A stretch of DNA of 64,000 bases, taken from Spirochaetales bacterium. Lineage in GTDB: Bacteria; Spirochaetota; Spirochaetia; DSM-2461. The stretch lies in NCBI GenBank assembly GCA_028533045.1, contig JAQQAP010000038.1, forward strand, positions 1-64,000, read 5' to 3'. Positions 9,537 to 37,134 of this stretch are shown piece by piece. Numbering within the stretch: position 1 is the first letter of the stretch; every line of letters starts with the position of its first letter. Below the pieces are notes generated by a model. That model saw nothing but the letters and a program-made list of their open reading frames with translations. It was not told the DNA's origin and searched no databases. Made by a program: the position numbers and the translations under genes.

Positions 9537-9698
9537 CCCTGTAGCTTAGTACCTTTAATTCAGATCGTTGATCTACTCCTTTCACGGGGAGGTACAAAAC
9601 TACAGGGTGAAGAAGTCCTTAATGGCTTCCTTGCCCGTTTAGACTTTCCTGTAGTGGTCTTTACGGGGCGTGACAGGGAAGCGATTAAGGATTTTTTT
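9537..9698 (+). ncRNA. Structured leader RNA, riboswitch/attenuator-like
   Basis: Domain 1: CCCTGTAG (9537-9544) pairs with CTACAGGG (9600-9607), 8 bp. Inside it GTACC (9549-9553) pairs with GGTAC (9591-9595) and closes two hairpins, AGATC/GATCT (9562-9574) and CTCC/GGAG (9576-9591, sharing one base). Domain 2 is a long terminator hairpin (9617-9690) ending in T7 just before the Rha start codon. An alternative helix is possible: CTACAGG (9600-9606) with CCTGTAG (9648-9654), extended by GAAGTC (9612-9617) with GACTTT (9642-9647). That helix excludes both P1 and the terminator. This is the logic of a riboswitch. Seen in sequence; ligand and function are unknown. Confidence 0.6.
9617..9698 (+). 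terminator. Intrinsic terminator/attenuator overlapping Rha ribosome binding site
   Basis: CCTTAAT-G-GCTTCC (9617-9630) pairs with GGAAGC-G-ATTAAGG (9677-9690): 13 bp around one G-G mismatch, continued by GCCCGT/ACGGGGC with one bulge. Followed by A and seven Ts (9692-9698). The AAGGA ribosome binding site of the Rha gene is in the 3' strand, so the hairpin would block both transcription and translation. Confidence 0.75.
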
Positions 9699-10367
9699 GT
9701 GTTTAATCAAATTATTAACATCAAAGATGAAATGCGTATGTCCAGCCGAGAGATTGCTGAACTCACCAACAAAAGACACGACCATGTTTGCCGTGATATT
9801 TTAAATCTTAATGAGTCTTACGGGAAAATGTCACTCCCCAAAGTTGGGGAGTCAGATTACACTAATGATCGCGGTAAATCCTATCGTCAATATCTACTAA
9901 CTAAAATGCAGACATTCGACTTACTTACTGGTTATTCAGCTGAGTTAAGGATTACAGTCAATAGACGATGGGAAAAGCTTGAAACAGAAAGAACAGAATG
10001 GATAGGAGCCAGACAGAAAGGGATTGCTGTTAGGAACGATGCTACCGATACCATCCAAGACTTTATTCAATATGCGAAAAGCCAGGGGAGTAAAAACGCT
10101 GATAAGTATTATACGAATATTTCCACTATGGAAAACAAGGCGTTTTTTCTTATCTCTGAAAAATACCCCAATATGCGAGCCATCATGACAGTGCAACAGC
10201 TACGATATATACAATCTGCTGACATTGTTATTAAAGAGGCAATCATAGAAGGAATGGCAAATAATATGTCCTACAAAGATATTTACAAGTTAGCCAAGGA
10301 GCGCATAGAAGTGCTGGCTACACTCCTTCCGAAAACGGAGCTTCCGAGCAGGGAGTTGACAAAATAA
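9699..10367 (+). CDS. Rha-family phage regulatory protein
   Basis: 222 residues from GTG 9699, chosen because AAGGA lies 7 bases upstream and the family's N-terminus (INIKDEMRMSSREIAEL) is then complete. Residues about 10-90 match the pRha winged-helix-like domain (HDHVCRDILNL, LTGYSAELRITVNRRW). Residues about 113-215 are a second domain (YAKSQGSKNADKYY) shared with the minus-strand Rha gene at 32164. Rha proteins interfere with lysogeny or act as antirepressors. Expression is probably set by the leader RNA just upstream; a terminator follows at 10408. Confidence 0.85.
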   Translation: MFNQIINIKDEMRMSSREIAELTNKRHDHVCRDILNLNESYGKMSLPKVGESDYTNDRGKSYRQYLLTKMQTFDLLTGYSAELRITVNRRWEKLETERTEWIGARQKGIAVRNDATDTIQDFIQYAKSQGSKNADKYYTNISTMENKAFFLISEKYPNMRAIMTVQQLRYIQSADIVIKEAIIEGMANNMSYKDIYKLAKERIEVLATLLPKTELPSRELTK

Positions 10368-13407: not shown

Positions 13408-13863
13408 ATGACAGATTTAAGTGAATTAAGCCTACCCGAACTGAAAGAAGTCGCTAAAAATGTTGGTGTTTCTTTTGGTGGAAATATCGGTGAAGATAAG
13501 CTAAGAGAAAAACTTAACGCCCACTTTTCCGAAAACGAAGAATTGACAGAGCAGACCGAAGAAGGTACTGTTTCCCCGGAAGCCCCGGAAGCCCCGGAAG
13601 CCCCGGAAGCCCCGGAAGCCCCGGAAGCCCCGGAAGCCCCGGAAGCCCCGGAAGCCCCGGAAGCCCCGGAAGCCCCGGAAGCCCCGGAAGCCCCGGAAGC
13701 CCCGGAAGCCCCGGAAGGAATGGTCAAGGTAAAATCAGTTCACAACGGTATTATTACTGTAGGAAAAGAGCAGATTGATTTCGGTGGTCCCGATGATGCG
13801 GTAGAAGTATCTGCGGAAGTTGCTGAGAAGCTTTGTTCTCTGAAAGGGTATGAAAAGTGTTAA
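13408..13863 (+). CDS. HeH-like N-terminus, Pro-Glu-Ala repeat protein
   Basis: 151 residues. Residues 1-40 ([20 protein letters not shown]) resemble a HeH/SAP-type helical domain. Residues about 57-103 are a perfect Pro-Glu-Ala tandem repeat. The C-terminal 45 residues are beta-rich ([20 protein letters not shown]). Placed between capsid and connector genes, so perhaps a head decoration or fibre with an extended rod. Exact function unknown. Confidence 0.55.
13576..13716 (+). repeat. 9-bp coding minisatellite
   Basis: Fifteen perfect copies of CCGGAAGCC plus a partial CCGGAA, coding for Pro-Glu-Ala. All copies are identical at the DNA level, meaning recent expansion by slippage or strong conversion. 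Copy number is likely to vary between isolates. Confidence 0.95.
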
Positions 13864-32163: not shown

Positions 32164-32871
32164 TTATTTATTCTCTGGGATTGCCATAGGTATACTTGTC
32201 TTTGGAATCAACTCAGAGTATGTTAAAACCCTCTTCTTCGCCAACTGGTAAATATCTTTGTAAAACATTTCTTTCTCCATCCCCTCCCTAATAGCCTCTC
32301 TAACTATTGTGTCCGCTCCTTGGATAAAAGAAAGCTGTCTATTATCCATAACGTCCCGAAGGTTGGGGAATTTCTGCATAACAAAGAACAATGCCGCATT
32401 TTCCATTTTAGAAAAACTCATATAGTATGTGTCTGCGTTTTTGCTTCCTTGAGATTTTGCATATTCTATAAATGTCTTCATTACCCCAGTTGCGTCTTTC
32501 CTTGTTAGCTTCCCTCTTTCTCTATTTTCTAACCATGCTTGATTTTGTTTGTTTAGAGAGACTTCCATTAGGGCCATTCTCATGGTGGAAAATTCCCTAA
32601 TTAGTTTTTCTCTTAGATCATCGGTTTCCTTTCTACTTCTTGTGTACGTAAGAAGCATTAAGGATTGTTGTTCTGTTAAGAGGAAAATCTTCATAGGTCT
32701 ACCGGTTTTTGGTTTTACGGTTTCAAACCGCAAAACTCCAAATCTTTCTAATTGCTCTTTGTGATTAGAAATAAGCTCGTATGTAAATCTATGTGCCTGT
32801 CCAAACTCTTGAGCAAGTACCCTACTGTCCACAAGTAAATCTTGTCCTTTCATCTTTACTATATTACTCAT
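32164..32871 (-). CDS. Rha-family phage regulatory protein (second copy)
   Basis: 235 residues from ATG 32871. Residues 10-100 are a pRha-type DNA-binding domain (LLVDSRVLAQEFGQAHRFTY). Residues 125-225 (FIEYAKSQGSKNADTYYM) match the C-terminal domain of the Rha gene at 9699. The ATG 9 codons upstream would lie within the promoter, so 32871 is preferred; the mRNA would then be leaderless. Probably an early lysis/lysogeny regulator. Confidence 0.8.
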   Translation of the reverse strand: MSNIVKMKGQDLLVDSRVLAQEFGQAHRFTYELISNHKEQLERFGVLRFETVKPKTGRPMKIFLLTEQQSLMLLTYTRSRKETDDLREKLIREFSTMRMALMEVSLNKQNQAWLENRERGKLTRKDATGVMKTFIEYAKSQGSKNADTYYMSFSKMENAALFFVMQKFPNLRDVMDNRQLSFIQGADTIVREAIREGMEKEMFYKDIYQLAKKRVLTYSELIPKTSIPMAIPENK

Positions 32872-32877
32872 ATAAGC

Positions 32878-32906
32878 AGTATAAACGGTAAGGCACATAT
32901 AGTCAA
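32878..32906 (-). promoter_or_regulatory. Sigma70-like promoter for leaderless Rha mRNA
   Basis: Minus strand TTGACT (32906-32901), 17 bases, TATACT (32883-32878). Six bases separate the -10 box from the ATG at 32871, so transcription should begin at the start codon itself. Confidence 0.75.
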
Positions 32907-36090: not shown

Positions 36091-36171
36091 TCAACCGCAA
36101 CCAGAACTACCGCAACCAGACATATTTGCATTATCAATCACAAGAACTTCTTCATTTTCAAACGTCCACAT
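36091..36171 (-). CDS. 26-residue peptide ending in Gly-Cys-Gly motifs (possible RiPP precursor)
   Basis: ATG 36171 is preceded by a near-perfect AAGGAGGTG at the end of the radical SAM gene, so strong coupled translation is expected. The first 17 residues are acidic and leader-like (WTFENEEVLVIDNAN); the last nine are SGCGSSGCG. Small Cys/Gly tails next to a radical SAM enzyme are typical of RiPP precursors and Fe-S or metal-binding peptides. A hairpin follows the stop. Function is inferred from context only. Confidence 0.6.
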   Translation of the reverse strand: MWTFENEEVLVIDNANMSGCGSSGCG

Positions 36172-36173
36172 GG

Positions 36174-36920
36174 TTACACCTCCTTATATTCTAATTTATT
36201 TTTTCCAGCCCAATCAAATGTTAAATCTCCATTTGGCTGAATAATCAACTCATAAATCCCATCCATTTGTTCGCACGTTTCCTGTACCTGATATTTAAAA
36301 GTCGTATGAACACCATGGATTAAGTGTCTACGGTGTAAACAGGCTCCACAAGAGTGGTAATCTATCAGTGTATCGTCATGATCAACAGGTAGGATATCTA
36401 AGTCAGAATAATACTTCCGAAAAGCCACCCTAGACCCTAGTAATTTTGCGATCATTATATATCGTTCTATGAAACTGTAGTCCGTAAAATCCGATGGTAG
36501 AAAGCAGTTCAATGTTACTTTGCCAGATTTACAGATTTCTTTTAATTCCTCATAGTCGGGTACTGATTCCGTATTAAAGACATCATAATTTTCTTTGTCA
36601 TAATAGTGGTGGCGGCTTATGTTTATATAATCTACCAAATCAATGTATTCTTTCTTAACGTGATGCCCGTTAGTGTTTAACACAACTTTATCAAACCTAT
36701 TCCTGGCTGTTTTAAGATAATTGAATAGGTCGGGTGATAAAGTAGGTTCGCCACCCGTTATGCTAATTTGCTTAAATACGGGAGGTAATGTATTACAAAT
36801 AAATGAAAATCTTTCTAATGTTAACCCATGCCCCGATTCCCAGTAACAGAAAGAACACTTCGCATTACATCCTACAGGCATAATAAGAGACAAGTTGGGA
36901 TTGTTAACTGTTAACTTCAT
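36174..36920 (-). CDS. Radical SAM enzyme
   Basis: 248 residues from ATG 36920 (ATGA overlap with the upstream gene). CNAKCSFC (Cys18, 22, 25) is the CX3CX2C cluster motif; ITGGEPT (56-59 GGEP) binds S-adenosylmethionine. Cys191, Cys194 and Cys216 followed by IIQPNGDLTFDW look like a SPASM/twitch-type auxiliary site, as in peptide-modifying enzymes. Its stop overlaps the ribosome binding site of a 26-residue Cys/Gly peptide gene. It could also be a nucleotide-modifying enzyme; substrate unproven. Confidence 0.85.
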   Translation of the reverse strand: MKLTVNNPNLSLIMPVGCNAKCSFCYWESGHGLTLERFSFICNTLPPVFKQISITGGEPTLSPDLFNYLKTARNRFDKVVLNTNGHHVKKEYIDLVDYINISRHHYYDKENYDVFNTESVPDYEELKEICKSGKVTLNCFLPSDFTDYSFIERYIMIAKLLGSRVAFRKYYSDLDILPVDHDDTLIDYHSCGACLHRRHLIHGVHTTFKYQVQETCEQMDGIYELIIQPNGDLTFDWAGKNKLEYKEV

Positions 36921-37084
36921 CTCCACCACCTACAAATCCCATCTGGTATCTTTTCCCCATTCTCCCAGTACCACTTCCCATCTCTCCACTCTACCCGCTC
37001 ATTTCTCATAAATTCATGTCTCATTTCATACCAGCCGTTTTGAGCAGGAACCATAACTTTACCGTCATGAAAGTTCCAATTCAT
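36917..37084 (-). CDS. Small Trp-rich protein upstream of radical SAM gene
   Basis: 55 residues, nine Trp (GKWYWENGEKIPDG; ends ICRWWR), ATG with AAAAGGAGAAAA upstream. Translationally coupled to the radical SAM gene. Could be a partner, a second substrate or an unrelated early protein. Confidence 0.55.
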   Translation of the reverse strand: MNWNFHDGKVMVPAQNGWYEMRHEFMRNERVEWRDGKWYWENGEKIPDGICRWWR

Positions 37085-37134
37085 AGATTTTCTCCTTTTT
37101 AAAAATGGAACCGGGTATTAACCGGCCCATCATC

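Follow-up and report, generated by a model that had tools for sequence, protein, structure and literature searches.

The 64,000-nucleotide window analysed here covers the opening 64 kb of a phage contig of 83.5 kb that belongs to a 4.2-Mb metagenome-assembled genome with 7% contamination. Sheath- and baseplate-like genes were recognised by eye, and the phage is therefore myovirus-like. Its minus strand carries the following cassette:

36917–37084, minus strand: ORF for a Trp-rich protein of 55 amino acids, with AGGAG upstream at 37092–37096
36174–36920, minus strand: ORF for a radical SAM (rSAM) enzyme of 248 amino acids, ATG at 36920 and stop at 36174–36176
36177–36185, minus strand: ribosome binding site of the peptide, AAGGAGGTG, within the last codons of the enzyme gene
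36091–36171, minus strand: ORF for a tail peptide of 26 amino acids, MWTFENEEVLVIDNANMSGCGSSGCG, with SGCGSSGCG as its last residues
36057–36086, minus strand: hairpin 3' of the peptide stop, with an 8-bp inner stem and no T-run

Transcription runs from the 55-amino-acid ORF through the rSAM enzyme to the 26-amino-acid peptide as one operon. The original prediction described three overlapping genes on this strand: a Trp-rich 55-residue ORF, an rSAM enzyme and a 26-residue peptide ending in SGCGSSGCG. All three are present as ORFs, and a 4-nt overlap (ATGA) joins the first gene to the enzyme start, through which the two are likely to be translationally coupled, but the peptide ATG lies 2 nt past the enzyme stop. 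The ribosome binding site of the peptide does sit inside the last enzyme codons as proposed, and the closest relative of the locus (L005, described below) has a counterpart, GAGGAGGA, at the equivalent relative position. The hairpin expected behind the peptide stop also folds (–23.8 kcal/mol for a 76-nt stretch, z = –2.1), though lacking a T-run it was rejected as an intrinsic terminator, and the terminator scan makes no call. It may be an RNA end or stability element.

A relative of the 55-amino-acid Trp-rich gene was found in none of the fetched loci, and the gene is for this reason only a putative member of the system. Pfam matches of the 55-mer to DUF6316 and MoaF fell under the cut-off. 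Its N-terminus (WNFHDGKVMV) resembles that of the peptide (WTFENEEVLV) at about p = 0.05; a role as a second precursor with the leader of the peptide is not claimed, as approximately 5% of shuffled sequences equal the score with the window peptide and 19% do so with the L005 peptide. Elsewhere in the window, a structural-looking phage ORF (13857–15326) has an apparent intein-like insertion ending ...FFANDVLAHN before S, one protein (13408–13863) contains about 15 tandem EAP repeats, and a paralogous Rha/antirepressor-like pair (9654–10367 and 32164–32898) has a common C-terminal KNADxYY...MEN region; the first and third of these were recognised by eye.

The enzyme belongs to the radical SAM superfamily by its CX3CX2C motif at residues 18–25 and by its Pfam domain (Radical_SAM PF04055, 33.8 bits against a cut-off of 29.5, 4.6e-8). 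The motifs ascribed to it beforehand are all in place (C18-x3-C22-x2-C25, GGEP at 56–59, C191, C194 and C216). In its C-terminal part, CX2C at 191–194 precedes a strand-rich ending, IYELIIQPNGDLTFDWAG; C191 and C194 are the sole invariant Cys after the core in the window's clade, and a seven-Cys SPASM C-terminal domain is absent from the window enzyme. No curated NCBIfam family passed or approached its cut-off: the peptide maturase models gave 19–31 bits (cut-offs 300–850), the MoaA models TIGR02666 and TIGR02668 28.5 and 39.2 bits (284 and 325), viperin NF038283 37.7 bits (180) and HxsC TIGR03977 26.4 bits (267.9), with HxsC scores spanning 26–47 bits. Since the Pfam domain passed and the curated cut-offs were all missed, the enzyme is an rSAM protein that falls into no named family. 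In fold, a nucleotide cyclase and peptide maturases are its nearest counterparts. The best PDB fold matches of its AF2 model (pLDDT 76, pTM 0.79) were MoaA, SuiB, SkfB, viperin and EpeE, led by MoaA 1tv7 (E 5e-9); a PDB profile search returned viperin (E 1e-15), MoaA, SuiB and EpeE/YydG, and PADLOC gave a pVip match at 1e-13. The best matches in a viral structure library were proteins of 379 and 467 residues with nameless identifiers, lengths compatible with those of the tail-bearing Erwinia-phage enzymes. A homologue in Erwinia phage Y3 (KY984068 / NC_047880, locus L013) is annotated as GTP 3',8-cyclase. This annotation is probably wrong, because the protein scores far under both MoaA cut-offs and has a Cys tail at its end.

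Scanning viral contigs with a profile identified the L005 enzyme, 62.6% identical to that of the window over its full length, with a 29-amino-acid peptide, MWKFRGKEVLVCNDDNKPGCGGGGGCGNS, directly behind it. The two peptides are 52% identical (E 1e-6), and 6 of their 14 identical residues are encoded by different codons, which indicates that the peptide is conserved at the protein level. The other genes of the L005 phage (55 kb) and the window phage (83.5 kb) gave three weak matches (32–37%); the free-peptide layout thus occurs in two phages with few other genes in common. An MWxF...EVLV N-terminus combined with a Cys/Gly tail is conserved in these two only, and elsewhere a linker or a larger N-terminal part precedes the tail.

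Scanning with the window, L005 and L069 enzymes showed that other members of the window's clade (L069, L097, L098, L101, L104 and L105) have the tail fused to the enzyme. The L097 enzyme (43% identical) ends in ...SYVGSGCGSSGCGGPVYKQSYSGCGRFGFSSCGR, which includes SGCGSSGCG letter for letter, a 9-mer match that taken alone has E = 0.02. The L105 end, GSGRGCGSSGCR, includes GCGSSGC; L104 ends in SSCGYSSCGSSGC, and GGGC/GGSC pairs close L098, L101 and L069. As these closer relatives have fused tails, L097 with the exact SGCGSSGCG, the 26-mer of the window is best read, from sequence comparison, as a detached version of a tail that in most cases belongs to the enzyme itself. In the jumbo phages of Erwinia, Dickeya and Yersinia the tail is likewise at the C-terminus of the enzyme itself, past a Cys-free linker of 26–75 amino acids. 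All 18 distinct proteins of this type have at least two tail Cys, and Y or F stands at +2 of 56 of the 57 non-terminal Cys. The tail of a fused Erwinia enzyme was predicted to be disordered in an AF2 model (pLDDT 33–37); docking was uninformative. Blocks repeated between spacers occur in L012, L015, L019 and L104 and look like multiple core sites.

At other loci (L002, L006, L008, L035, L046, L047, L063, L103 and Lak) the tail is on a separate partner protein. A protein of 86–165 amino acids lies immediately upstream of the enzyme in the huge phages LR745206, LR756502, L006, L046 and L047 and beside the second LR756501 copy, with tails such as DGCGGGSYRRSSC or YSGCGSSSNTGC; in Lak phages a protein of 153–166 amino acids lies immediately downstream and ends in GGCGNTYGGFSRSGGC or similar, and the upstream partner in L103 ends in SNSCYYFGWGC. 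Only one terminal Cys is present in L008 and beside the second LR756501 copy, and the L063 tail is also of the single-Cys kind. The rarity in phages originally predicted for the pair did not hold: it occurs in dozens of jumbo phages.

A strict tail was defined as at least two Cys and at least five Gly/Ser in the last 14 residues. In or beside the enzyme it was found at 22 of 28 distinct family loci, the window included, and the other six have weaker tails that are shorter, less Gly/Ser-rich or single-Cys. It was found in none of the 467 other genes of the family loci and in none of 360 comparator genes (43 bacterial, archaeal and other phage loci with 62 CX3CX2C ORFs), 0/827 across all control genes; we give counts instead of a probability because the first tails were already in view when the rule was set and because the loci share ancestry. 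The tails recur as clade-specific motifs (GCGSSGC, GGGC..GGGC or C-x-[F/Y]) in a variable layout, with one to six Cys at spacings from 3 to over 40. Relatives fetched once the tail idea had already been recorded serve as a test, and a tail is carried by every one whose enzyme matches the window or huge-phage group at 30% identity or more along almost its full length (L046, L047, L063, L069, L097, L098, L101, L103, L104 and L105). The later-fetched L107 (25% identity) and L111 (partial match) have no tail, nor do one of the two LR756501 copies (L001/L011), the distant L041 and Dulem virus 40 or the Bacteroidales chromosomal clade (L076, L085, L088 and L096). Enzyme and Cys/Gly tail are thus conserved as a unit across family loci; homologues consistently without a small Cys peptide would have spoken against the prediction, and nearly all phage members depart from that pattern. 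In a tree that leaves out L069 and L097–L105 the tail-bearing enzymes fall into four deep groups, and this tree does not settle whether the tail association had a single origin. Nothing was found in a single-sequence viral scan or in a first genome scan with A2, and plasmids gave no match. Bacterial matches L028–L034 were of MoaA, NrdG and PFL-AE-like types without tails and were set aside. In the Bacteroidales/Prevotellaceae chromosomes (L076, L085, L088 and L096), relatives of the huge-phage clade are flanked on one side by a gene for a protein with a DUF1810 domain and on the other by a HemW-like rSAM gene; these may be cellular relatives of the phage enzymes.

We propose that the cassette represents, in split form, a phage rSAM enzyme that modifies its own tail, in cis or in trans, a reading that we consider somewhat more likely than not. 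The enzyme would bind SAM on a [4Fe-4S] cluster and generate a 5'-deoxyadenosyl radical, which would abstract hydrogen in or adjoining a Cys site of the tail and leave a modified residue or a thioether-type crosslink. Thioether formation at Cys is a common outcome of rSAM chemistry on Cys-rich peptides. Enteropeptins contain a six-membered ring between Cys and N-methylornithine (PMC12395415), and nothing in the present data selects this type of ring chemistry. Most relatives would consist of the enzyme, a flexible linker and a Gly/Ser tail with Cys at recurrent sites, with the fused tail acted on in cis; a free peptide or partner protein would be acted on in trans. In the window and L005 a free peptide of 26–29 residues would be made right behind the enzyme, on which it probably docks through roughly its first 16 residues (MWxF...EVLV). 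The best reading of the tail itself, we infer, is as the substrate of the enzyme, since its sites are repeated and clade-specific, blocks are duplicated, disorder is predicted, as expected for a substrate arm, cis and trans forms interchange and the pair is kept in dissimilar phages; this assignment is limited by the variation in tail layout and Cys number, by tail-less relatives and by the lack of a full SPASM domain, and where it is fused the tail may just as well be a functional element of the enzyme.

One version of that alternative is that the tail is a thiol arm, acting as hydrogen donor, dithiol shuttle or gating tail, with the free peptide as a detached subunit. Fusion of the tail in most of the window's clade would suit such an arm, as would CGSSGC, which places a C-x4-C pair on a C-terminus with predicted disorder, and the top PDB fold match is MoaA, in which the C-terminal glycines form a gating tail. 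Tails that function in this way are known from ribonucleotide reductases (class I, NrdJm), whose active site is re-reduced by two cysteines at the end of a flexible C-terminal tail (PMC5704485). However, Cys numbers from one to six and spacings from 3 to over 40 fit this poorly, the single-Cys tails of L008 and L063 are unfit as dithiol shuttles, the strict C-x-[F/Y] repeats exceed what an arm needs and tail-less relatives exist; we regard the thiol arm as unlikely.

Cys-rich and flexible on an Fe-S enzyme, with two to six Cys in many cases, the tail could also bind metal or deliver an Fe-S cluster, as a built-in metallochaperone or metallothionein-like segment. This is less probable again: the Cys show no constant ligand spacing of the CxxC kind, a single Cys is all that some tails contain, tail-less relatives are known here too, and neither the aromatic at +2 in one clade nor GCG/GSS in others is a metal-site signature. 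The low complexity and variability of the tails, the mere 26 amino acids of the peptide and the E value of the L097 9-mer taken alone might suggest that these are unrelated Gly/Ser/Cys ends with no common role and that the window peptide is a chance ORF. The contrast between control genes and family loci in the survey, the synonymous differences within the peptide, the near-complete +2 motif fidelity and the tails of close relatives fetched later have already largely refuted this explanation, which we consider very improbable.

The proposed modification would most likely serve an intracellular role in infection rather than yield a secreted antibiotic or signal, because in the loci inspected no genes for transport, proteolysis or immunity were recognised adjacent to the pair and in most cases the tail remains attached to a larger protein. 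A small released peptide for competition or signalling, as first suggested, is not implied, as the tail is mostly fused or on a larger partner. More broadly, we tentatively suggest, at a little under even confidence, a phage-centred and RiPP-like class of self-modifying rSAM enzymes acting on their own or a partner's Cys/Gly tail, in which fused and split forms interconvert and the known carriers are mostly viruses (jumbo, huge, Lak and ordinary-sized phages). Such a class would be the rSAM counterpart of the borosins.

One hallmark of RiPP systems, a small precursor gene kept next to the modifying enzyme or joined to it, is present in this family. The rSAM maturases of sactipeptides and ranthipeptides (SkfB and PapB; SuiB and EpeE) are alike in rSAM core, short adjacent precursor (in the window), Cys-rich target and fold, but the phage enzymes have no NCBIfam match near a cut-off and no full SPASM domain, their tail is usually fused, and export and immunity genes are unrecognised. 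MoaA (GTP 3',8-cyclase) is the best fold match of the window enzyme, yet the enzyme reaches 39 bits with the MoaA model against a cut-off of 325. With viperin/pVip the rSAM core is common and it is mainly this core that aligns; we know of no Cys/Gly tail partner for viperins. The His-Xaa-Ser system (HxsB/HxsC), to which there is weak HxsC similarity, resembles the phage family in having repeated tripeptide target sites (C-x-[F/Y] in the phage tails), but its motif and gene set are unlike those of the phage family. In borosins the core is fused to the methyltransferase in fungi, and in bacteria it is on a separate precursor with an N-terminal helical binding domain (PMC8429565); like the phage family, borosins (OphMA; SonM-SonA) thus have the core either on the enzyme C-terminus or on a separate precursor (PMC8429565). 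They are alpha-N-methyltransferases, whereas the phage enzymes are rSAM proteins with a putative Cys/Gly/Ser core, mostly in phages and known here from sequence. RiPP systems and rSAM maturases are familiar. The open-licence papers searched, however, describe neither this family of enzymes nor its tail in cis and trans nor its spread among viruses, and they yielded no account of rSAM–precursor pairs in phages or of phage rSAM enzymes that carry a fused Cys/Gly tail.

Phage rSAM genes have been listed without partners (PMC2853527; PMC6143709), for example the 11 and 12 reported for phages CP220 and CPt10 (PMC2853527), and have so far been isolated curiosities or misnamed; pairing with a tail offers them a testable job. 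Should the tail be modified, the radical enzyme would contain its own substrate, a RiPP-like architecture that would be new, and this would allow peptide radical chemistry to be studied conveniently without a separate leader peptide. It would also represent a novel function for phages, and tagging the tail would offer a way to look for its target in infected cells. The system is testable because isolated carriers exist among the jumbo phages of Erwinia, Dickeya and Yersinia. Campylobacter phage vB_CjeM_WX1 (L038, 1–6019) has several clustered rSAM genes and an amidinotransferase, with no Cys tails. An NAD/ADP-ribose theme (NadR, PnuC, KptA), which has no instance in the window, marks the neighbours in several lineages. 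NadR-like and PnuC genes recur in huge phages, KptA RNA 2'-phosphotransferase in Erwinia phages and the DUF1810 protein in the Bacteroidales clade, some of them recognised by eye (L002 1568–2581; L006 898–1434 and 1874–2872; L008 2048–3582; L046 1613–2584; L003 1870–2415; L076 618–2918).
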